A stretch of 64,000 bases of DNA from Phycicoccus sp. HDW14 (GTDB lineage: Bacteria; Actinomycetota; Actinomycetes; Actinomycetales; Dermatophilaceae), in contig NZ_CP049935.1 of the NCBI RefSeq assembly GCF_011383005.1, positions 930,001-994,000 of the forward strand, given 5' to 3'. The translations under genes and the position numbers were made by a program. This document shows positions 1 through 16,860 of this stretch, in pieces. How positions within the stretch are numbered: position 1 is the first letter of the stretch; each line of letters opens with the position of its first letter. The notes beneath the pieces were generated by a model. It was not told the origin of the DNA. It did no database searches and saw only the letters and a list, made by a program, of their open reading frames with translations.

Positions 1-1253
1 GGCGCCGCCGGCCCCTCGAGCGCCGACTGGTACCCCTCCTGCCGGCCGAGCTGGTCGAGGCTGCGACCCGCCTGCTGACGCCGGGTGAGCGTGAGCCCGC
101 TGGCGCGCAGGGCCGGCGACGCGGCATCGGCCGGCATCTCCTGCAGCTCGGTGATCGCCAGCCGCGGGATGGTCGTCAGGAACCGCTCGGCCTTGATGGC
201 GGAGCCGTCCGGGTCGACGTCGACGACGTCGAAGACCTCGGTGTCGCCGAGGGTCAGCGCGCCGTCGCTCCAGATGGGCGGGTCGGCCGGGTTCGGCTGT
301 GACACGAACGAGCCGTCCCGCAGCGCCCGCACCGCGAGCCGCGGTGAGCGGCAGGCGGAGTCGCCCCCGCGCGTGTGCACGACGGCCGCTAGCCACCGCG
401 CCCGGGCCAGGCGCGCGGCGTCGGCACGGACGGGCAGCAGCAGCCCGAGCCGGCGGAGGAAGACCGGGTGGTCGCCGGCGGACCCGACGCGCTCGTGGAA
501 CTCGGCCTTCGGCGGGGTGAGCGGCGTGACCTTCACCGGCGGGTCGGCCATGACCTGCTTCTCGGCCTGGCTCTCCGGGCGCTCGTAGAACCGGCGGGCC
601 AGGTGCAGCTGCCCGAGCGCGGTGCCCACGGACGCGGCGGGGTCCGCCGGCAGCTGGCCCGCGGAGAGGGTCGTCCACGCGCCGTCGGGGCCGCGCCGGA
701 CGCGCCGGTCGAGGTACTCGGTGAGCTTCGACTCGTCGTACCTCGGGATCCGCCGGCGACGGTCGCCGTGCGTGCCGCGTCCGTCGTAGGTGATGGCGTG
801 TGCCTCGTTCGCCTGGCCGACGACGCCCTCGAGCAGCGGGTGCCGGCTCGGCGGGACCGGCGTCAGGGGGTCGGCGGCGACCGTGGCGAGGTGCACGGCC
901 TTGGCGATGTCGGCGCAGTCCTTCGCGGCGAAGGTGCGCCAGTCGCGGGCCTGCCACTCGGGCACGCGGTTGGCGAGCACTGGCGTGTCCTCGCCGAAGG
1001 CCTTCTGCCACAACGCCGGGTCGAGGCCGGAGAGGTCGACGTCGGCGTCGAACTCCCCGTTCTGGTCGACGAGCGTGACCGTCACGCCGGCGGTCAGCGT
1101 CGCGGCCCAGTCGCGGAACAGGTCGAACTCGCCGAGCACAGCGCCGTCGTGGTCGGGGCGCAGGGTCGGGGCGACGAAGACGGTGACGTGCGCCGGGGCG
1201 TCGGCCGCGACGGACACGGGCAGTGCGATGGCGGTGAACCACTCGGAGCTCAT
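1..1253 (-). CDS. hypothetical protein, 3' end beyond window edge
   Basis: An uninterrupted minus-strand frame of about 417 codons runs from an ATG at 1253 off the left edge, so the C-terminus is not visible. It begins MSSEWFTAIALPVSVAAD, with no signal peptide or membrane segment. The visible part is a mixed alpha/beta acidic protein with internal WQARDWRTFAAKD and GDTEVFDVVDVDPDGS stretches. I do not recognise the family. The ATG overlaps the stop of the gene at 1250-5165 by four bases (ATGA), so the two are almost certainly co-transcribed and translationally coupled. That suggests they act together. The frame has normal high-GC codon use and no visible frameshift. Confidence 0.75.
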   Translation of the reverse strand, partial: MSSEWFTAIALPVSVAADAPAHVTVFVAPTLRPDHDGAVLGEFDLFRDWAATLTAGVTVTLVDQNGEFDADVDLSGLDPALWQKAFGEDTPVLANRVPEWQARDWRTFAAKDCADIAKAVHLATVAADPLTPVPPSRHPLLEGVVGQANEAHAITYDGRGTHGDRRRRIPRYDESKLTEYLDRRVRRGPDGAWTTLSAGQLPADPAASVGTALGQLHLARRFYERPESQAEKQVMADPPVKVTPLTPPKAEFHERVGSAGDHPVFLRRLGLLLPVRADAARLARARWLAAVVHTRGGDSACRSPRLAVRALRDGSFVSQPNPADPPIWSDGALTLGDTEVFDVVDVDPDGSAIKAERFLTTIPRLAITELQEMPADAASPALRASGLTLTRRQQAGRSLDQLGRQEGYQSALEGPAA

Positions 1254-4200
1254 GCCGGCACCTCCTCGGGGGCGAAGGCGAGCAGGTAGTCGTCCCAGGC
1301 CGGTGCGGAGCCGTCCGGTTCCATGACGACCTCCCGCAGGCTCGGGTCGCCGTTGGAGCCGGCGAACTGGCGCTCGGCCTCGATGGTCACGCTGGCCGAG
1401 AAGCAGAGGACGTCGACCTCGACGGTGATGCGCGCCCGGCCGATCATCTTCCCGGTGTCGAAGCTGTAGACCAGCTCCATGTAGAGCTCGATGCTCGCCG
1501 AGATGAGGCCGAGGACGTCGACCTCGCCGCGGAGGCGGAAGTACCCGGTGAGAGAACCCTTCTCGCCCTCGAGCCGGATGTAGAGCCCGATGGCCGCTGA
1601 GATCGACCCCGACGCGACACCGAAGTCGACGGCGAGGTACGCCCCCGCCTCGAGCCCGAGCTCGAGCACCTCGAGACCCTTGGGGGACAGGCGGATGAGG
1701 AACCATCCGCCACCGCCGAGGAAGACGACCGACAGCACGAACGGACGCTCGCGGGTGCAGAAGTTGAACCCGAAGCTGATCGTCTCGCCGAGGAACGGCA
1801 CCTTGACGTCGGCACCGAGCGACATGTTCGACAGGTTGAAGACGCCGACGGCGAGGTTCGGGAAGGTGAGGCTGAACCCGGCCGTCAGGCCCTCGGGCGT
1901 GACCTCGACGCTCGGGGGTCCGAGAAGCCGTCGAGCGGGATGAGGTCCTTGATCGTCTCGACGAAGGAGAGGAAGCCGCCGAAGACGATGTCGCCGAGGA
2001 CGACGTCGACCTCGGCCTTGCCCGACGTCCCGCCGTGGAACGACATCCGCTCGAACGGGATGGTCACGAGCGGTTCGGACGCGAAGAGGATGAGCGAGAA
2101 CTTCCGCAGCTCGGCCAGCACCTCGACGCTCGGCGGACCGGACGCCCGCAGCGTGCCGGCCAGGGCGATGACGAGGGAGTCCGGCTCGAGCTTGACGAGC
2201 GGGTCCTCGCCCTTCGGCCACGACTCGAGCGTCGGCGCCCACTCGTAGCGGAACGAGATCTCCTTGCGCTCCGGGTCGAAGCCCTGGAGCACGGCGAACG
2301 CGTCGTCGACCAGGGCGCCGGCCTCGGCGAGCCGCTTCAGGGTGTCGGCGACCTGGGTCAGGCGGGAGCGGGCGAACAGTGGCAGCGGTGGGCGCACCAG
2401 CGCCCGGGCCGCGGCCGACGTGGCCTTGAGCTGGTCCACGGGCCCGCCGAGCGCGTGCAGCGCCTTCCCGACGTCGTCCTTCCCCAGACCGGCCAGCGCT
2501 GCCGGGAGCCCACCGACGACGGCCAGCAGGTCGGTCACGGCGGTGGCCAGCGCCTGGGCGTCGTCGAGCAGCCCCTGGGCCTCGGCGAGGGCCGCCCCAC
2601 CGGCAGCCTGTACCCGGTCGCGCACTGCCGCAGCCTGGTTCGCGGCGTCCTGCGCGGTCGCGACCGCACGCTGCACCTCGCTCTCGATGGCCGAGAACGT
2701 GTCGAGGGCCTCGGTGACCAGCGCCGGGGCATCCGCGAGCGGGCCGAGCAGAGGCAGGAGGTCCTTCAGCTCGACGAGGCCGAAGAGCTTGGGCAGGGCG
2801 GCACCGAGGAAGGCGGCGGGGTCGAACGAGCCGCTCGCGACGGACGCGAGGTCGCCCACCGGCCGCGGCTCTGGGACAGCCCGGCGATCGTGAGGTTGGG
2901 CTGGACGAACCCGCCGGCCTGGTCGGACCCGACGTCGCCCGGCGCACCGCCGAAGCCGATGCGCGGAAGCTCCTGCGGCTCGTCGCGCGCCGGCCCGGTG
3001 GTGGCGAGGTCGTCCTTGTACTCGGCGGAGGTGTCGAGCCCGGGCAGCAGCGTCGAGGCCCAGACCCGGCCGGCGTTCCCCGGCGTGAACCCCTTGGCGC
3101 GGTACTCCGGGAAGTACGTGATGCGGGTGGCGCCGGTGCCGGCGACGGCCTGGGCCGCGGGCAGCACGACGTCGGCGGTCGACATCCGCGGGCTGCTCCC
3201 GCCCTTGCGGGCCGTGCCGAGGACGCGCAGCGCCCGGGTCTCGACGCGCGCGTCGCCGTCCGGACCGGCCGGGGCGAACGCGACGTGCTGGCCGCCGAGG
3301 TCGATGACCCGCCGGGGGTCCTCGGCGTAGGCCTTCTCGAGGGCTCGCAGCTGCGCGGCGGGTCCGACGTGCTCGGCCACCCAGACCATCGGCATCGGAT
3401 GGGTCTGCGGCCGGCCGTCGCGGTCGATGCCGTCGACCTTCCACGCGAAGGTCTTGCCGCCGACTCGTGGCCAGAACGCCTCTGACGGGCTGAGGCCGGT
3501 GACCGGGTCGTCGCCGGGCGGGTCGAGGGCGGGCGTGGCTCCGGGGCCGATGCGGGTGCTGAGGAACGGGAACCCGTGCACGGCGGTGTGGTCGCGGAAC
3601 GGGTCGATGACGACGAGGAACTGGCGCTGCACGAGGCCCGCGGTCGGGTGGTCCTGCGGGCGGATGCTGCGCTGGGTCAGCTTGACGCGCACCGTCGGCT
3701 GGCCGAGCGGGAAGAGGTAGCCGGGGTAGACGACGCGCACGTACTGGTCGCGTCCGGCCGTGGCGATGTGGTCCCACGCGAGGATCGAGGCGATCAGCTC
3801 GTCGGAGTAGGGCTTGGTGTCCCAGTGGCCGTGCAGGTCGAGCCACGCACCGAGCGCGGTGAGCCAGAGCTTGTCCGCGCCGACGGGCACCGGGTCGATG
3901 CGCTTGCGTCCGCTCGCGGGCCAGACCTCGGCCGTCTGCCGGACGAGGCGGTGCCGGTCGGCCCGGTCGAGCGAGCCGAGGAAGGGGTTCGTGGGGGTGG
4001 TGGTGCTCGTGACCGTGTCGGGGCCGAGCGGGTCGGTGTCCCCGCGGTCGGCTCCCGGGTCGCGCCAGACGAACGGCGAGACGTCGTCGCGGTCGCGGGC
4101 CCAGACCGCCCGGATCACCCGGGACTCGGCGTCGGCGGGGTTGCCGGGCCACAGCAGGTCCTCGTCGGTGCGTCGGCCGGTGTCGAGCCGGGTGTGCCAG

Positions 4201-5165
4201 AGCTCGAGGTGGCCGGGGCGTCCTTGGCCGGCACGGGTTCGGCGGCGTGGACCCAGTGGCCCTCCGAGGTGGGCGAGACCTGCAGCCGGAAGGGGCCTCG
4301 ATGGCCGTCTCGTCCAAGGTCGCCTTGCGGCTGTAGGTGCCTCGGCGGAAGAGGATCCCTTCCCGCTCGCGGCTGCCGACGAGGTCGCCGATCCGTCCGG
4401 GGAGCGTGGCGGCGTCGAGGCCGCGCCCGAGGCTGATGCCGCGGCTGCGGGCGTACTCCGCGACGACCCGGTCGTTGGCGGCCAGCGCCGTGAAGCCGCG
4501 GACCGTGCCGGCGTCGGGCACCACGGTGCCGGCGCTGCCGCGGCGGGTGATGAGCACGTCGTCGGCGCGCAGGACCGCGAAGAGGCCGCCGAGCAGCGGG
4601 AGCTCGAGGAACGGGTCGAGGACGAGCTTCCCGGTCGGCAGCTGGTAGGGCGGGGGCCGCCGGCCCGGGGCCTCACCGCGCGGGTGCAGGGCGGCCTCGA
4701 GCCGGGGAGGCGCCCGAGGATGCCGGCCGACGTGAGGTCGATGCGTTCGCCCTCGGCGAGGGTGAAGACCAGGCGGCTGCCGCGCGCGGGTCGGTACTGC
4801 ACCGGGGGGTGGGCGGGGAGGACGACGCTCGGCGTGGTGGTCGTGGGCTCGCGGTCGGGGTGCATCGGGTCGAGCTTCGGCGTGCCACCCGACTCGTACG
4901 ACGCCTCCTCGTGGGCGTGCTGGAAGGGCATGTCGACGACGAGGGACGCCGTGGGTCCGGCGACGACGACGGAGTGCGGGCGCCGGGCGGCCTTCGGGCC
5001 CTTGGTGACCGGCGGCTCCAGGGTGGCTCCGCGGACGGTGACGGTGAGCGCGACGAGGTCACCGGGGCGGATGACGTCGACGACGATGTCGTCCGCGCCG
5101 GGGCGGTGGTTGTACGGGTGCAGCTTGCCGGCGTCCGGGAGGCCCGGGACGGTGCGGTCGGTCAT
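1250..5165 (-). CDS. large beta-rich protein of unknown function (~1306 aa after frame repair)
   Basis: A single protein starting MTDRTVPGLPDAGKLHP can be read across five suspected one-base deletions, at runs 4704-4707, 4292-4295, 4215-4218, 2873-2875 and 1914-1918. Adding one C (coding strand) at each joins the pieces without loss. The first ~800 residues are mixed beta structure. A helical Ala/Gln-rich coiled-coil-like section follows (about residues 810-900). The last ~350 residues are strongly beta, with alternating hydrophobic/polar strands and a PPSVEV motif near both ends of the second part. No signal peptide or clear membrane helix is visible. I do not recognise a family or function. 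Its stop overlaps the ATG of the next gene. Confidence 0.65.
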
Positions 5166-5534: not shown

Positions 5535-7328
5535 CTAGGGAACGTGCCGAGGGGGCGGATCCGGCGCCGGCTCGTCGTCGTCCGCCGGCGGCTCGGGTTC
5601 GAGGTCGTCGAGGTCGGTGACGTCCGGCTCGTCGTCGACCTCGGGCGCGGACCGGGCGGCCTTGACCCCTGCGGCGATGGAGTGCCACAGGTGCCCCGGC
5701 CCGAGCTCGCCGAGCAGCCCGGCCCGCCCCAGCACCCCGCGCACCTCGCCGAACACCCGCACGAGGTGGACGTCGACGCCGTGCCGACGTAGCACGTGCA
5801 CCAGGTGGGTCAGCCGGTCGCTCGTCGTCGAGTCCATCTGGTTGGTCGCCTCGAGGTCGAGCACCACCGCCCGCAGCCCACCCTCGGCGGCCCGCGCGAG
5901 GGCGATCCGCTCGACCTGGGCCAGCACCGTCGTCGCGTTCGCCCAGAAGAGCGGACCGCTCGGCCGCAGCACGAGCACCCCGCGGTAGGTCCGCCGGGTG
6001 GGGTCGGACGCCAGCGACCCCCACGCCGCCTTCTCCGTGGACACCCGGCCCATCTCGTCGACGTCGACCTGCACCGAGCGGTAGACGAGCCCGAGCAGCG
6101 ACTGGGCGACGGCACCGAGCAGCCCACCGAGCGGACCGAGCGCCAGCACCCCACCGAACGCGACGAGCGCGGCCACCGCGTCGTTGCGCCGCAGCCGCGC
6201 GTACCGGACGAACTCGTGCGGACGGACCAGCGCCCACACCGCGTGGATGACGATCGCCGACAGCACTGTGCGCGGCAGGTCGGCCAGCGCACCCGTGGCC
6301 ATGACGAGCACCCCGAGGGTGACGACGGCCGAGGTGATGCCGCTCAGCTGGGTGTGTGCCCCGGCGCTGGCGTTGGCGGCGGTCTTCGACAGCGAGCCGC
6401 CCACCCCCATCCCGCCGAACAGGCCGGATGCGAGGTCGGCCGCGCCGTGGGCCACGAGCTCGCGGTCGTCGGTGCGGGCGTCGACCTCCTCGGCGGAGAA
6501 GGTCCGGACCGCCGCCAGCCCCTCCGCGATGCCGACCGCCGCGATGGCCAGGCCTCCGGTGACCACCCCGCTGAGCAGCCGGACGTCGACGACCGGCAGC
6601 GACGGCACCGGCAGCCCGCTCGGCACGGCACCGACGACGAGCACGCCGTGGTCGACCAGGGCCGCCTGCGACGACAGGACGATCCCGACGACGAGGACGA
6701 GGAGCGACCACGGCACGCGGGGGAGCAGCCGCTGCCCGCCGAAGAGCACGAGCAGGGCGGCGGCCCCGATGGACAGGGTCAGCCCGTCGAAGTCGCCGAC
6801 GCCGCCGACGAGGGTGACGAGGCGCTCGGCGAGGTTGCCGGTCGGAGCCGGAAGGCCCGCCAGCGCCGGCACCTCGCCGACGACGATGAGGACCACGAGC
6901 CCGGCGACGAAGCCCGTGACGATCGGCTCGCTGAGGAACTGCGCCACCCAGCCGAGCCGCAGCAGCCCCGCGACGACGAGGACGACCCCGGCCGTGAGCG
7001 CCAGGGCCGACGTGAGCCGGACCGCCAGCTCCACGTCGCCGCCGGACAGCGCGCGCACGATGGTGCCGGAGAGCACCGAGACCGTGGAGATCGGACCGAC
7101 GAAGAGCACCCGTGACGTGCCGAGCAGCGCGTAGGCCAGGAGGGCGGGCGGCAGCGTGTACAGACCGACCTGGACGGGCACCCCGGCGACGGCCGCGTAC
7201 CCGAGGGACTGGGGGACCGCGAGGGCCGCGACGAGCAGGCCGGCGAGCAGGTCGCCCGGGAGGTGGCGCCGGGGGTAGTGGCGCAGCGTCCGGAGGTTCT
7301 CCGGCACCACGGCCCACGGCACCTGCAC
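5535..7328 (-). CDS. SulP family anion transporter with STAS domain
   Basis: The ~597-residue protein shows the SulP layout: a conserved N-terminal motif (VPQSLGYAAVAGVPVQVGLY), 10-12 hydrophobic segments to about residue 430, and a cytoplasmic STAS domain (about 455-560). An acidic Pro-rich tail follows, ending PAPDPPPRHVP. SulP proteins carry inorganic anions such as sulfate or bicarbonate across the plasma membrane; the substrate cannot be read from the sequence. The start is uncertain: GTG at 7328 and GTG at 7322 are adjacent in frame, and the longer one is given. No frameshift is seen. It diverges from the gene at 7530, so both promoters lie in 7329-7529. Confidence 0.88.
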   Translation of the reverse strand: MQVPWAVVPENLRTLRHYPRRHLPGDLLAGLLVAALAVPQSLGYAAVAGVPVQVGLYTLPPALLAYALLGTSRVLFVGPISTVSVLSGTIVRALSGGDVELAVRLTSALALTAGVVLVVAGLLRLGWVAQFLSEPIVTGFVAGLVVLIVVGEVPALAGLPAPTGNLAERLVTLVGGVGDFDGLTLSIGAAALLVLFGGQRLLPRVPWSLLVLVVGIVLSSQAALVDHGVLVVGAVPSGLPVPSLPVVDVRLLSGVVTGGLAIAAVGIAEGLAAVRTFSAEEVDARTDDRELVAHGAADLASGLFGGMGVGGSLSKTAANASAGAHTQLSGITSAVVTLGVLVMATGALADLPRTVLSAIVIHAVWALVRPHEFVRYARLRRNDAVAALVAFGGVLALGPLGGLLGAVAQSLLGLVYRSVQVDVDEMGRVSTEKAAWGSLASDPTRRTYRGVLVLRPSGPLFWANATTVLAQVERIALARAAEGGLRAVVLDLEATNQMDSTTSDRLTHLVHVLRRHGVDVHLVRVFGEVRGVLGRAGLLGELGPGHLWHSIAAGVKAARSAPEVDDEPDVTDLDDLEPEPPADDDEPAPDPPPRHVP

Positions 7329-10956: not shown

Positions 10957-11820
10957 GCCCGATTGTCCACCGCATCGTTCACGGCCTGGGCCATCGTCGT
11001 CGGGGGCGACCGATGAGGCGCTCGAGGTCGCCGCTGGTCACCTCCAGGGCGCCCCGTGCGACGCCGCGGTCGGCGTCGGCCAGGACGGCCGCGTACGGCT
11101 GCGGGAGACCGGCGCCGACGAGGACGGCGGTCAGCTCGGCCTCGGGGAGGTCGCGGTAGGTGACCTGGGTCCCGGAGGCCTCGGTGACGGCGGCGGCCAG
11201 GTCGGTGAGGGTGAAGGCGGGGCTGCCCCGAGCTCGTGCACGGTGCCGCCCGTGGCCTCGGCGTCGAGGAGGACGGCTGCCGCGGCGTCGGCGTAGTCGG
11301 CGCGGGTGGCGGCGCTGATGCGTCCGTCCGCGGCCGCGCCGAGCACGGCGCCGTGCTCGAGGTAGGTGGGCACCTGCGGGGTGTAGTTCTCGAGATACCA
11401 GGAGTTGCGCAGGAAGACCCAGGGGAGGCCGGAGTCGCGGATGACCTGCTCGGTGGCCACGTGCTCGGCGGCGAGCTGGACGCCGGAGGTCTCGGCGTTG
11501 GCGATGCTCGTGTAGGCGAGGAGCCCGACGCCGGCGGCCTTCGCGGCCGCGACGACGTTCGTGTGCTGCGGGAGGCGCTGGCCGACCTCGCTGCCCGAGA
11601 CGAGGAGGACGCGGTCGGCGCCCTCGAACGCGGCACGCAGCGACTCGGGGTCGGCGTAGTCGGCGGCGACGGTGCGCACGCCGCGGGCGGCGAGGTCGGC
11701 GACCTTGGTGAGGTCGCGGCCGGTGGCGACGACGTCGGCGGGGTCGGCGCCGCGACGCAGCAGCGCCTCGACGACGAGGTGGCCGAGCTGGCCGGTGGCT
11801 CCGGTGACGACGATGGTCAT
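10953..11820 (-). CDS. qor2: NAD(P)H:quinone oxidoreductase-like SDR, first of tandem pair
   Basis: This is a second QOR2/NmrA-type protein (about 288 residues after repair), starting MTIVVTGATGQLGHLVVEAL with the GxxGxxG nucleotide motif. Two suspected one-base deletions break it: the run at 11226-11229 (restoring VHELGGSPAFTLTDLA) and 11002-11006 (restoring LIGRPPTTMAQAV). With both repaired, the stop falls at 10953-10955 and overlaps the ATG of the next gene. That coupling strongly supports the repair. Homology to its neighbour is clear but not close, so the pair is an old duplication. It diverges from the HxlR gene. Confidence 0.8.
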
Positions 11821-11899
11821 GGTGGTTCCTCTCGTGGGGGTGTCCGGTGGTTCTCTCCGTCGGCCCCAACCGGGCGGGGGATGGGTTGCTTCCCCTGGG

Positions 11900-11913
11900 G
11901 AAGTACGCACTTC
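11900..11913. promoter_or_regulatory. candidate operator between qor2 operon and HxlR regulator
   Basis: GAAGT-ACGC-ACTTC is an inverted repeat lying 16 bases before the regulator's ATG and 79 bases before the qor2 start. It is followed by GGTACTCAC directly before the ATG. HxlR proteins bind dyad sites in the intergenic region they share with their target, often autoregulating. The site is an inference from symmetry and position. Confidence 0.45.
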
Positions 11914-11929
11914 TGGGTAAGGTACTCAC

Positions 11930-12322
11930 ATGAGGGTGAGTGACGAGGTCAGCGCGGTGCGCGAGGCGTTCCCGGACGGTGTCTTCCCGGCGGCCTGCCC
12001 CAGTCGGGTGGTCATCGACCACGTGACGAGCAAGTGGGGGCTGCTCGTGCTGGTGTCCCTGGTCGACGGGCCGCAGCGGTGGAGCGAGCTGCGGCGGCGG
12101 GCGGAGGGGGTCAGCGAGAAGATGCTCGCGCAGACCCTGCGGACCCTCGAGGCCGACGGGTTCGTGCACCGCGAGGCGTTCCCGGTCATCCCACCGAAGG
12201 TCGAGTACGGCCTGACCCCGCTCGGCGAGGAGCTGGCGGCGCACCTGGTGCCCCTCATGGGGTGGGTCGCCCGGAACGCCCATGCGGTGGTGTCGGGGCG
12301 AGCGGCCGCGGTGCGCGTCTGA
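11930..12322 (+). CDS. qorR: HxlR family winged-helix regulator, QorR-like
   Basis: A 130-residue winged-helix protein with the HxlR signature: HVTSKWGLLVLVSL (helix 1 region), RWSELRRRAEGVSEKMLAQTLRTLE (helix-turn-helix) and a wing ending in YGLTPLGEEL. A single cysteine at residue 23 (AACPSR) sits where thiol-sensing members such as QorR and YodB/HypR carry their redox cysteine. Together with the divergent quinone reductases, this supports a redox- or quinone-responsive repressor. The ATG is only 9 bases after GGTAC, so the message may have little or no leader. Confidence 0.82.
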   Translation: MRVSDEVSAVREAFPDGVFPAACPSRVVIDHVTSKWGLLVLVSLVDGPQRWSELRRRAEGVSEKMLAQTLRTLEADGFVHREAFPVIPPKVEYGLTPLGEELAAHLVPLMGWVARNAHAVVSGRAAAVRV

Positions 12323-12328
12323 GGCGTC

Positions 12329-12363
12329 GGGGGCCGGCGGGACGGGTGGGGGCCGGCGGGACG
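12329..12363. repeat. 16-base direct repeat after hxlR
   Basis: GGGGGCCGGCGGGACG occurs at 12329-12344 and 12348-12363, directly after the HxlR stop. Each copy contains the palindrome GCCGGC, so it could fold in RNA. It may be a weak terminator or a slippage duplication. The rest of the 185-base gap to 12508 shows only a purine-rich ribosome site (GAGAGGA at about 12496). Confidence 0.5.
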
Positions 12364-12507
12364 CGTGGGGCGTGGTGGTCTGGCCGGTGGGTGACATCTC
12401 GGGGTGTCCGGTGGCCGCCTGTGGACAACTCCGGTGGCGGTCGGGGGGATCTTGGCTAGTTTGGGCGTGCTGGGGGTCGCCGAGGGGGTGACCCGGGAGA
12501 GGAACGT

Positions 12508-13095
12508 GTGGCACGCGCAGCGCGGTGGGCGGTGGTGGCGGGGATGCTCGCCGCCGGGATCCTGGTGGGGTGCGACTCCTCGTCCGATGATCCGGTCGTG
12601 ACGCCGAGCCCGAGCCCGTCCGTGTCGAGCTCGTCGCCCAGCCCGAGCCCCAGCTCGTCGCCGTCGGTGACCGAGTCGGGTCCGCAGATCCCCGCCGCCG
12701 CCCGCGAGAAGACACCCAAGGGCGCTGAGGCGTACGTGAAGTACTTCTTCGACCAGTTCAACCTCGCCTACACGCGCCCTCAAGTTGGTCTGATCGAATC
12801 AATGAGCACGCCAGGGTGCGAGTTCTGCTCGAAGTCGGAGGTCAGGGCGGTTGGTCTAGCCGAGGACAGGCAGCGGTACGCGCAGAATCCCGTGAAGCTC
12901 GAAGAGGCCGTGAGTTTTGGGGGCGCCCCGAAGAACGAGCAGTACGTGCGTATCCGCTTCACGCAGGTCGCAGCCACCATCGTGGATTCGAACGGCAGGC
13001 AAGTCAGCCAGGTGGCAGAAGGCACTGCAACGGCGAACGCGGCTTTGAGGTGGAGTGGCAGCCGGTGGTTTGTTCGCGGGATCGAGAAGGGCTGA
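12508..13095 (+). CDS. lipoprotein, DUF6318-like
   Basis: A 195-residue lipoprotein. GTG 12508 follows GAGAGGA by six bases. The signal peptide ends in a lipobox (AAGILVGC, Cys at residue 22), followed by a Ser/Pro linker (PSPSPSVSSSSPSPSPSS). Then comes a compact ~130-residue NTF2-like domain with a TPGCEFC cysteine pair, as in the actinobacterial DUF6318 group (family named from memory). It should be anchored on the outer face of the membrane. From about 12780 onward codon use shifts clearly to A/T-ending codons. The stop overlaps the ATG of the next gene by one base (TGATG), so they are coupled. Confidence 0.8.
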   Translation: MARAARWAVVAGMLAAGILVGCDSSSDDPVVTPSPSPSVSSSSPSPSPSSSPSVTESGPQIPAAAREKTPKGAEAYVKYFFDQFNLAYTRPQVGLIESMSTPGCEFCSKSEVRAVGLAEDRQRYAQNPVKLEEAVSFGGAPKNEQYVRIRFTQVAATIVDSNGRQVSQVAEGTATANAALRWSGSRWFVRGIEKG

Positions 13096-14014
13096 TGAAA
13101 AGCCTCACCCGCCGCATGCTGTCTGTGCTCGCTGGCATGCTGCTCGTGATGGCCATCGGGGCTCATTCCCTTGCAGCGAAGGAGCCCCCGGATGGCGACA
13201 TATTGGGTGACCTGTCGGATACCGGCAGCGTTGTAAAGACTCTGAACCGGGCCAACGTCGACGCCTTGTCCACTCACTACTTCCGCAATGTGACGGCCAA
13301 AGGACCGTTCTACGACTACGCAGCAGTGTCGGCGTGCAGCAATGCGGGGCCGGGGGAAAATGAAGGCGACCTTTGCCCAGCATCATGGGGGCTCTGCCGC
13401 GTGGCTTCCGGGGGCGGGGAGGGGCCAGCAGTGACTGTCTTCCAGCGGCAGGTGACGCGAGCTGGTGCGCCACTACCCGGAAGTGACGGCGAATGGCAGC
13501 GAGTCGACTTGACCTGTTGGCCCGAGCGAGTCCCGGGAAACGCGAACGCGTTAACGATGACGATGATCCGAAATGCGTTCCATGACACCGACTTCACGAA
13601 GCCGACGGTGAACATCCAGCCTGAGGGGGACGTCACGCTCGTCAACCTGCCGACGTTCTTCGAGGTGAAGTTCCCGGAGGCGGGATTCGGCCCTGAAGAA
13701 ATTGACCGCCCAGACCCCGCTCGATTGCTGGGGTACAGCATCGAGGTGCGTCCGCGGCTGAAGTCGGTGACCTACCACCTGGGCGAGCGGACGATCGGTC
13801 CGACGACCGACCTCGGGGGCCGTACCCGAACGGCTCCGTCGTCCAGACCTACAGGCAGCCCGGCACGCAGCAGGTCCGCGTCGACATCGTCTACACCGGC
13901 CAGTTCCGGGTCGGCGGCAGCGGGTGGATCGACATCCCCGGCGAGGTCGACCTCCAGGGCACGCCGTCGACCCTGACCATCCGCGAGGCGAAGTCACGGC
14001 TCTACACGAGCTGA
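13095..14014 (+). CDS. secreted PKD-like protein
   Basis: About 306 residues after repair. MKSLTRRMLSVLAGMLLVMAIGAHSLAAK is a Sec signal peptide. The middle has paired cysteines (SACSN, DLCPASWGLCRV, LTCWPERV). The C-terminal domain is PKD-like, with a GERTIGPTTDLG turn and a strand-rich end. One suspected missing G at 13815-13819 breaks it; repair gives GGPYPNGSVVQTYRQPGTQQ and a stop at 14012. Similar cysteine-rich PKD proteins sit beside DUF6318-like lipoproteins in other actinobacteria, by my recollection. Lower GC than the surroundings. It probably acts at the cell surface; function unknown. Confidence 0.75.
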
Positions 14015-14164
14015 GCACCTGGACCGGGCCCTGGTGGGTCCCGTGGCGTCAGAAGGGGGGTGATCACCCCGAGAACGACGCCAGGGAAGCGGCCAGGAGG
14101 GGCCCCATCGGGCCGCGAGCCGCCCGACCGGGTGCCCGAGGACCCACTCCGGAGCAGTACCCGA

Positions 14165-14192
14165 CGAAACCGGTGCCATGACACCGGTTTCG
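14165..14192. terminator. bidirectional terminator hairpin
   Basis: CGAAACCGGTG (14165-14175) and CACCGGTTTCG (14182-14192) form a perfect 11-base-pair stem with a six-base loop. It lies in the 212-base gap between convergent genes ending at 14014 and 14227, so it can serve both. Nothing else was seen in that gap. Confidence 0.8.
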
Positions 14193-14226
14193 CCGGGTGC
14201 TGGGTGGCCTGCCGCCCGGCCGCCCG

Positions 14227-15797
14227 TCAGGCGAAGAGCTTGGCCGCCGTGATGAGGGTCTGCACGACGCCGTAGGCCAGCAGGAGGATCACCACGCCCC
14301 ACGACAGGTACACCCGCAGCGACCCGCCGCGTGCGGCGGACCCCTCCGACTCACCCTCGGCGAAGTCGGCCGCAGCAGCCGACGCCGCACCCTCGGGCTC
14401 GTTGAAGCGGGCAGCGACCGGCTTGACCATGAGGTTCGCGACGAACCCGACGGCCAGCACCCCGACCATCGTGAACAGGGCCGGCCGGTAGTCGGCCGCC
14501 GTCAGCTTGCCCGGCGTGCCCGCGGCATCGAGGAAGCCGTTGATGATGAGCGGCCCGACCACCCCGGCCGCCGACCACGCCGTGAGCAGTCGCCCGTGGA
14601 TGGCCCCGACCTGGAAGGTGCCGAAGAGGTCGCGCAGGTAGGCCGGCACCGTCGCGAAGCCACCGCCGTAGAAGCTGATGATGATCGCGGCCACGAGGAC
14701 GAAGATCGCCGTCGACGTCGAACCGGCCAGCGCGAGAAGCAGGTACAGCACGATCCCGACGCCGAGGTAGAGCATGTAGATCGGCTTGCGACCGATCCGG
14801 TCCGACGTCGAGGACCACACGAAGCGCCCCGCCATGTTGAAGAGCGACAGCAGCCCGACGAACCCGCCGGCCGCGGCCACGGTGACGGCCGACTTGCCGT
14901 CGGAGCCGCGGAAGAAGTCCTGGATCATCGGCGCCGCCTGCTCGAGGATGCCGATCCCCGCGGTGACGTTGCAGAAGAGGACGACCCACAGCAGCCAGAA
15001 CTGCGGCGTCCTGATGGCGTTGGCCGCCGACACGCTGCGGTCGGTGATGAGGTCGCTCTTGTCCGACAGCGTCGACGGGTCGAAGCCGTCGGGCGTCCAT
15101 CCCGGCGCCGGCACGCGGACGTTCGTGACGCCGATCATCATGATGAGGAAGTAGATGACCCCGAGGCTGACGAAGAGCATCGTCAGGGCGTGCCCGTTCG
15201 CGAGCGACGACGCGACCGACGGGTCGTAGTCGGAGTCGTAGAACTTGAGGAGCTGGCGCGACAGGGGAGAGGCGACCATCGCCCCGCCGCCGAAGCCCAT
15301 GATGGCCAGCCCGGTCGCCAGGCCCGGCCGGTCGGGGAACCACTTGATGAGCGTCGACACGGGGGAGATGTAGCCGATGCCCAGCCCGATCCCGCCGATC
15401 ACGCCGTACCCGAGGTAGACGAGCCACAGCTGGGTCGTCGCCATGCCGATGGCGCCGACGAAGAACCCGAGGGCCCACGCGCAGGCGGCGGTGAACATCG
15501 CCTTCCGGGGCCCGACCCGGTCGACCCACGTGCCGAGGACGGCCGCCGAGAGCCCGAGCATGACGATGGCGATCGAGAAGACGATGCCGACGGCCGTCAA
15601 CGAGCTGTCGAAGTGGGCGACCATCGAGGCCTTGTACACGCTCGTCGCGTAGACCTGCCCGATGCACAGGTGGATGGCCAGGGCGGCCGGGGGATGAGCC
15701 AGCGGTTGTAGCTCTGCGGTGCCACGGTGTGGTGGCGGTCGAGGAGCGAGAGCAGGCCCCCCGACGGGCCTCCCCGCTCGTCGGTGGTGGCGGCCAT
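14227..15797 (-). CDS. OFA family MFS transporter (oxalate/formate antiporter-like)
   Basis: About 523 residues after repair of one missing base at 15689-15693, which joins MAATTDERGGPSGGLLSLLD and SYNRWLIPPAALAIHLC to the rest. Twelve hydrophobic segments, an MFS loop 2-3 motif (VDRVGPRKAMFTAA) and an extra C-terminal helix (VVILLLAYGVVQTL) fit the OFA group. These carry oxalate, formate or other monocarboxylates; the substrate is not determined. It is single, convergent with the secreted protein, and read from the region 15798-16087. ATG 15797 follows a GGAAGGGG site. Confidence 0.82.
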
Positions 15798-16087
15798 GGG
15801 CGTCCCCTTCCGTCGTCCCGGCGCCCCGTTGCGCCTCGGGCGCGCGTCTCCCGGCACGCGCCTCGACCGACAGTAGGCACCCGTCGCGCGGATCGGCCCG
15901 CTAGCGACCGACGACTTGGACGGCTGTCCCGGTCGTCCACAGGGGAGGGCTCGGCGGCCCGTCGTCCACAGGCGGGCCCCCGCCGCGGTGTGGCTCGGCC
16001 GTGGTGTCGGTGCTCGTGCCTAGGGTTGGGGCAGACGGCGACCGGAGGAGCGCTCGTCGGCCCACGGTCCGTGAGGAGGTGCGTGAG

Positions 16088-16860
16088 GTGGAGGTCCAGC
16101 AGGCCCTGGCGATGGGGCGTCGCCTGCTGCGCGAGCACGGGCTCGACGGCTGGAGCATCGTCGCCGACCGGGCCAAGACGCGCGCCGGGGTCTGTCGCTT
16201 CGGCCGCCGGCAGATCGGTATCAGCGCCCCGCTGACGGCCCTGCACTCCGAGGACGAGGTCCGCGACACCCTGCTGCACGAGATCGCCCACGCGCTCGTC
16301 GGTCCCGAGCACGGCCACGACGAGGTGTGGCGCGCCACCGCCGTCCGCATCGGGTGCTCGGGGAGCGGTGCGTGCCCGCCGACGCCCCGCGCGTCCCGGG
16401 CGACTGGGTCGGCCGGTGCCCAGCGGGTCACGAGCGCACCCGCCACCGCGCCCCCACCCGGCTGATGTCGTGCGGTCGGTGCTCGCGGCGGTTCGACACC
16501 GCGCACCTGTTCACCTGGTCCTACCGCGGGGGCCCGGCGTCCCTGCCACCCTCCTACGCGGCCGAGCTGGCCGAGCTGCGCCGCACCACGGTCGCCGCGG
16601 CGGCCGCGCGGCCGCCCGGGCTCGGTGAGCTCGTCGAGGTGTCGGTGGGCCCGTGGGCGGGGATGACGGGAGTGGTCGAGCTCGTGGGGTCGGTCCGCTG
16701 CCAGGTGCGGGTCGACGACGAGCTGGTGAGCCTGCCGCTCGAGGCCGTCCGACCCGTCACGTCGGCCGGCGCGGCCGCCGCGTCCGCCGCCACGTCCCGC
16801 AGCGCGGCCCGGGCGGTCTCGGCGGGGCGGGCCACCTCGGGGGCGGGTGATGCCGCCTGA
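16088..16860 (+). CDS. SprT-like zinc metalloprotease
   Basis: About 257 residues after repair. The N-terminal SprT-like domain has the zinc site HEIAH (residues 64-68) followed by GPEHGHDEVW, which provides the third ligand. A zinc-ribbon region follows (GRCPAGHER, MSCGRCSRRF), then a KOW-like beta segment (WAGMTGVVELVGSVRCQV). One missing G at 16360-16363 breaks the frame (repair: IGCSGERCVPADAP). GTG 16088 was chosen because GAGGAGG lies seven bases upstream; GTG 16079 is possible. Relatives (SprT, Spartan) act on DNA-bound proteins; the role in bacteria is unclear. It leads a likely operon with the downstream GDPD gene (11 bases). Confidence 0.8.

Follow-up and report, generated by a model that had tools for sequence, protein, structure and literature searches.

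A giant pair of adjoining genes in Phycicoccus and distant bacteria, tentatively read as a soluble carrier that some members export through Tat

The stretch of DNA considered here, called the window, comprises 64,000 nucleotides of Phycicoccus sp. HDW14 (G000:C1:930001-994000), the source genome being a single contig of 4.07 Mb with an estimated completeness of 92.7%. Its left end carries two very large genes, A and B, with the following features:

1250-5165, minus strand: gene A, broken by five frame changes; six pieces align with the intact copy L009, and five of them are under purifying selection
2703..5165 (approximate), minus strand: N-terminal beta-rich part of A, after the model of L028, with borders transferred from L009 and L028 by alignment
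2289..2702 (approximate), minus strand: helical part of A, corresponding to five helices at 720-855 in the L028 model; entropy 2.67
1253..2264 (approximate), minus strand: C-terminal beta domain of A with its tail, corresponding to strands at 864-1164 in the L028 model
1271..1918, minus strand: core of the C-terminal domain of A (C-domain profile E 3.4e-90; dN/dS 0.11; entropy 1.78)
1..1253, minus strand: first part of gene B, which continues left of the window to L022 position 15287 (G000:C1:926287); 81.9% identity to B of P. sonneratiae

The stop codon of A occupies 1250-1252 and its start lies near 5165. An intact counterpart of 1,304 amino acids exists in Phycicoccus sonneratiae (L009:6752-10666), in agreement with the protein of ~1300 residues that an initial annotation of the window had placed at 1250-5165. 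Alignment with this protein divides the window copy into six pieces that differ in frame, with changes near 4704-4713, 4270-4294, 4214-4217, 2862 and 1894-1918; the same number of frameshifts had been counted from the letters alone. Relative to L009, dN/dS amounts to 0.50 (147 codons), 0.44 (139), 0.29 (451), 0.30 (313) and 0.11 (221) from the N-terminal end onwards, for five of the six pieces, all but the shortest one of 27 residues; three control genes nearby give 0.08-0.18. Given these low values, A is a real coding sequence under purifying selection, which is strongest in the C-terminal piece (96% identity to its P. sonneratiae counterpart).

The frame changes fit indel errors of the assembly, since 4 of the 19 other genes compared in the region also align in more than one piece to their P. 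sonneratiae relatives and B has one frame change, though A has more frame changes per kb than its neighbours. The four further genes lie at 10968-16755 of the window and themselves suggest such errors. The window copy could also be a decaying accessory gene without present function. This is unlikely: the density of frame changes in A, the split copies of A or B in other loci (L056, L076 and L062) and the lack of A in seven of the ten genomes listed for the genus (three have it) would be expected of such a gene, but dN/dS is well under 1 in five pieces, the broken genes nearby point to the assembly, and both other Phycicoccus genomes have open copies. Upstream of A, at 5604-7328 (minus strand), lies a gene that by eye looks like one for a sulfate-permease-type transporter, a relative of which adjoins the pair in both of these genomes.

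The start of B overlaps the stop of A, and its window part spans leftwards from 1253. Intact B has 1,654 amino acids in L009, and dN/dS of the window part against it is 0.29. The initial annotation had advised looking for conserved neighbours left of the window, into which region gene B extends; that A is half of a gene pair had been overlooked. A match to B lies downstream of A, on the same strand, in all 47 distinct A loci from genomes and plasmids, every one of them found through A. This set leaves out two remote relatives (L080 and L109) and a Paraburkholderia fragment (L068), and in seven of its loci B runs off the available stretch (L012, L014, L026, L028, L069, L074 and L115). The nearest start codon of B is at most 40 bases from the stop of A in 36 of the 47 loci; in ten of the remaining 11 the B profile falls short of the B start, and for five of these ten the annotation places the start of B no more than about 45 bases from where A ends. 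Because all 47 loci had been found with A, a search with B as query carries particular weight: when the Phycicoccus A and B were compared separately with 72,556 plasmid records by tblastn, each matched 10 records, and the two sets are identical (with the S. meliloti A, 14 plasmid records are matched).

The two genes also diverge together. Identities of A and B co-vary across loci (Mantel r 0.84, with none of 2,000 permutations as high) and the nearest relative is identical for both in 27 of the 47 loci, a co-divergence to which the species history common to both genes contributes. No homology between A and B is seen (probability 0.2). Judged by these sequence comparisons, A and B very probably form one two-gene unit. 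Among the neighbours within 6 kb in 42 loci, there is neither a widespread third gene nor a conserved lipid gene; the widest neighbour cluster covers 6 loci and looks by eye like an ordinary ABC-type ATPase. In all three Phycicoccus genomes compared, B is followed by a gene for a membrane-protein-like product of 195 amino acids (L022:14536-15120, L009:17021-17608 and L027:18747-19334).

Carriers of the pair make up 1.5-3.4% of the genomes sampled and belong to Actinomycetota and Pseudomonadota. Gene A occurs in 5 of 149 genomes of the window's family and 10 of 297 of its order, its own included each time. For Actinomycetota the count is 13 of 396, likewise with its own (15 matches minus two on the helical part only), or 11 of 346 genomes by the C-domain profile. 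For the phylum of a Lysobacterales MAG it is 6 of 398 with that MAG included (7 minus one helical-only match); G208, G315 and G556, whose matches are confined to the helical part, are not counted as carriers. The pair is an accessory trait, patchy in distribution and often plasmid-borne. In the Lysobacterales MAG it lies on a contig of 14.4 kb (L010:5101-13844), has identities to the Phycicoccus pair of 60% in A and 55% in B, and reflects either a misbinned contig or a recent transfer. Split copies occur: A is annotated as two genes in Rhizobium ruizarguesonis TP23 (L056:11776-16018) and is also split in L076, and on a plasmid of Agrobacterium vitis (L062:15426-24117) the annotation divides B into two genes, with dpdE close by (PADLOC E 4.7e-223). 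The occurrence of such copies suggests that the pair is dispensable.

More distant versions of the pair exist as well. At L080, a protein with the same C-domain is followed by a relative of B of 1,426 amino acids (hhalign probability 95.5, E 1.6e-8, 304 columns), and a relative of L109 in Rhizobium has annotated adjoining genes of 2,489 and 2,569 residues; the B profile itself matches neither L080 nor L109. Relatives of the B-like protein of L080 are found on plasmids of Microvirga, Tistrella and Chlorohelix (Chloroflexota), each preceded by a large gene. In both Chlorohelix and Tistrella, catalase genes have been annotated in the vicinity of the remote pair (L129:4173-6347; L130:17428-19548), possibly by chance.

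No known family accounts for either protein. The intact A and B proteins from L009 and L015 reach no curated cut-off in Pfam or NCBIfam, and A goes without a name in four profile libraries, as the initial annotation had anticipated. The only rows with E below 0.01 in PHROGs and PADLOC, and all PDB sequence rows of A, fall on the helical part. The profile of the C-domain has no PDB row below E 0.19, and the best Pfam row of 36 C-domain members has E 0.034, with no porin among them. A tail or tape-measure protein was rejected because the PHROG rows (best E 3.2e-4) and the PDB rows are confined to this helical stretch, where the similarity is of the coiled-coil type; the label 'apolipoprotein A1/A4/E domain' given to one Rhizobium relative may be the same coiled-coil effect. 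A phage origin was likewise set aside: used as query, A has no match in 50,697 phage records, the 38 stretches retrieved from viral contigs with two peptide patterns (a search of limited sensitivity) contain no relative of A, and the viral fold library gives one row with E below 0.001, at TM 0.06-0.07. A defence system was also considered and rejected. No PADLOC model covers A, the rows being limited to the helical stretch of a single A (best E 0.0036) with none at E 0.01 for A of L028 and L059, and the defence genes near single copies (dpdE, an N-6 DNA methylase with a WYL gene, an HsdR-like gene and CRISPR genes) are too scattered. A link to phospholipases, raised by two copies that have a patatin-like gene and a zinc-dependent phospholipase C gene as neighbours, concerns too few loci. 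In the literature searched, by titles and beginnings of abstracts, no description of the pair was recognised.

Export signals are found in part of the family. A clear twin-arginine signal stands at the start of A in S. meliloti LMB1. With a fixed rule (a twin-arginine motif close to the start, with a hydrophobic stretch behind it), Tat signals are detected in A of 13 of the 47 loci (15 by eye), in B of none, and in 8 of 1,611 other open reading frames of the loci, a rough control in which the first 150 residues of stop-to-stop frames, mostly non-genes, were scanned, as against up to 60 residues past the profile start for A. The signal-bearing proteins are the large A of Sinorhizobium, Rhizobium, Ruegeria and Agrobacterium plasmids and of four further genomes; the actinobacterial ones are L065, L074, L075 and L076, with L079 added by eye. 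Even by eye, 32 of the 47 A show no such signal, the window copy included. None is seen in Phycicoccus, Cupriavidus, Diaphorobacter and some Streptomyces copies, nor at the start of A in the window, L009 or L026. The earlier statement that the protein has no signal peptide thus holds for the window copy and fails for the family. Signal-less A, including that of the window, may act in the cytoplasm or exit by another route.

In two loci the pair is accompanied by a gene for TatA, which in L059 lies about 50 bases downstream of B and in L105 about 770 bases downstream of B and on its strand. Both are called by Pfam TatA_B_E, with scores of 36.7 and 33.7 bits against a cut-off of 21. Pfam recognises none of the small genes that follow B in four other loci, and tblastn with both TatA finds no convincing third copy across the loci examined (next best E 0.044). 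Since the A tree groups L059 with L105 as sisters (support 0.955), the two placements perhaps go back to one event. Taken together with the signals, it is probable that the signal-bearing A are exported through Tat, whose cargo is folded and soluble prior to export.

The structure of A was modelled for L028 (1,199 residues, 29 sequences; mean pLDDT 76.1, pTM 0.62). Strands predominate to about residue 660, five helices follow at 720-855, and further strands occupy 864-1164, the last seven being 12-18 residues long. The model thus displays the three-part layout, beta N-terminal, helical and C-terminal beta, of the initial annotation, and its long alternating strands could, as then proposed, form an open sheet or barrel. 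The core at 976-1165 is the most conserved region of A (entropy 1.78), the N-terminal part being intermediate (2.29) and the helical part the least conserved.

When the more hydrophobic parity of each strand is taken as its hydrophobic face, the 16 strands of the C-domain show on this face a hydropathy of +2.14, 6% charged residues and an entropy of 1.74, compared with -0.99, 31% and 2.12 on the opposite face. Strands of the core alternate strictly; those at 909-958 of L028 A are weakly amphipathic. In five of the last seven strands the hydrophobic face is free of charged residues family-wide, the other two having 7% and 16%, and it is the more conserved face in five of the seven. These contrasts are only partly special to the domain, because strands of the N-terminal part also differ under the same face rule (hydropathy +1.08 versus -0.64; entropy 1.88 versus 2.40); the amphipathicity of the C-domain differs from theirs in degree, not in kind.

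Structural comparison by VIA aligns residues 976-1173 of A with CymA (Z 14.3, 3.9 A, 193 residues) and 976-1164 with OmpG (Z 12.8, 3.7 A, 180 residues). The other high rows for the C-domain are mostly outer-membrane barrels, and no other clear structural matches appear there, while the helices match pectin-methylesterase-inhibitor bundles and various helical proteins with Z values of about 10-11, a level that the tool treats as common. Foldseek places microsomal triglyceride transfer protein (MTP) first (E 2.4e-4, probability 0.18, TM 0.07-0.08), followed by porins, TamA, OrfX1-OrfX3, apoB100 and P47; its lipid-protein rows, with TM-scores of 0.03-0.10 and probabilities of 0.05-0.18, are too low to establish a fold match. 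The suggestion of a lipid-transfer protein made in the initial annotation is compatible with the data as a possibility; nothing found here supports the shell-like protein named beside it.

The likeness to porins opens the way to a membrane-active A, in which the C-terminal domain would be, or become, a beta-barrel spanning a target membrane, and delivery or recognition would fall to the N-terminal part and B, for example in microbial contests. The strict alternation of the core strands and the patchy, often plasmid-borne distribution would suit such a role. However, a Tat cargo, folded and soluble beforehand, is unlike a finished membrane barrel, and the core shows the highest conservation within A, whereas weapons often vary. 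Moreover, Trp and Tyr together make up 2.8% of the hydrophobic face and 5.4% at strand ends, so that the aromatic girdle usual in outer-membrane barrels is missing. A membrane-active A is on this evidence rather unlikely.

The model of B (L078, 1,200 residues, 23 sequences; mean pLDDT 76.7, pTM 0.68) matches chains of sandwich domains, with complement C3 and fibronectin-type and macroglobulin-type proteins in the first rows of Foldseek and VIA. Foldseek returns 29 rows with E up to 0.001, and the best Z is 8.0 (8.5 A, 293 residues), again a level that is common for the tool. A string of such sandwiches could serve as the binding arm of a structural or adhesive complex of the surface or matrix, for which A would be the anchor or scaffold. 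The very large size and the Tat signals on part of the A proteins would agree with this, but the common Z value, the members without a signal and a conserved C-domain left unexplained make a surface or matrix complex improbable. A large enzyme, with catalytic residues in the N-terminal part of A or in B, would explain why certain polar residues stay conserved across 88% or more of the rows, such as E222, R285, R381, D382 and R408 in A (L028 numbering; R381, D382 and R408 lie in the N-terminal part) and many D, R, W and H in B. These residues occur in strands and turns and may be structural, and neither protein matches an enzyme family, which makes an enzyme very unlikely.

What the sequences show is the pairing, the co-divergence, predicted Tat signals on A and not on B, tatA in two loci and the amphipathic strands. 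The reading preferred here is that of an exported carrier. In the cytoplasm A would adopt a fold of three parts: a beta-rich region at the N-terminus, a helical bundle, and at the C-terminus a curved sheet whose long strands are amphipathic. B, consisting mostly of beta-sandwich domains, would bind A as a permanent partner, and in part of the family the Tat signal on A would export the folded complex with B as a signal-less hitchhiker. Because Tat cargo is folded before export, the amphipathic sheet would have to hide its hydrophobic face. This face is the more conserved one in five of seven long strands and is poor in Trp and Tyr, and it is therefore more plausible as an inner wall than as an outer wall that faces lipid. 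It would line a groove or barrel holding a hydrophobic ligand, most likely a lipid, and a face that must be hidden and looks like an inner wall favours a soluble carrier as the work of the pair. As a whole statement, that A and B are one folded unit, exported by Tat in some members and carrying a hydrophobic ligand in soluble form, this is possible and put forward tentatively.

A giant protein pair that has no family name and always adjoins in distant bacteria would represent a novel type of two-protein complex. The S. meliloti LMB1 proteins have 3,052 (A) and 1,766 (B) residues, 4,818 in total or roughly 500 kDa at 110 Da per residue. If the link to Tat holds, members of ~3,000 residues are a natural test of the size of folded cargo that Tat can move; how the pathway accommodates substrates of so varied size is termed "perplexing" in a review (PMC9251779). 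If the sheet carries lipid, the pair would be a bacterial equivalent of the giant lipid carriers of animals. The boldest form, a counterpart of lipoprotein particles in the shape of a soluble carrier of lipid or another hydrophobic cargo that is built from two giant proteins (~500 kDa in S. meliloti LMB1) and exported folded via Tat with its own TatA beside some copies, is speculative and on balance doubtful.

The pair fits no described kind of system and is, in cautious form, an undescribed gene pair of unknown function. Several known systems share features with it. The large lipid transfer proteins (MTP, apoB100 and vitellogenin) resemble A in their very large size and beta-helical-beta order; MTP is its first Foldseek row, apoB100 is among the first ten, and the Vit_b-sht_shell model of vitellogenin gives a sub-threshold row with the Diaphorobacter A (E 0.19; 12 bits versus 27). 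In contrast to this likeness, the TM-scores are low, there is no sequence match (A of L009 and L015 has no row with the Pfam models of lipid transfer proteins), and A has five helices only where these proteins have a long helical superhelix. The TULIP-like P47 and OrfX proteins are among the first eleven Foldseek rows, but with TM-scores of about 0.05-0.10, probabilities of 0.09-0.15 and no sequence match. CymA and OmpG share the curved antiparallel sheet of 976-1173 with A, which differs in having no Sec signal that was seen and no sequence match to them, and in being part of a soluble-looking giant whose Phycicoccus host has no outer membrane. For B, the fibronectin-type and macroglobulin-type sandwich chains are alike in heading the structural rows, and unlike in the modest best Z and the lack of a sequence match. 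Finally, Tat hitchhikers, in which a single signal serves two partners, are described in two papers (PMC4273604, PMC10924467). The A-B pair is far larger than the hitchhiker complex of the PaoABC type and matches no cofactor enzyme family, but it shares with that complex (PMC4273604) the arrangement of adjoining genes in which one partner bears a Tat signal and the other does not.
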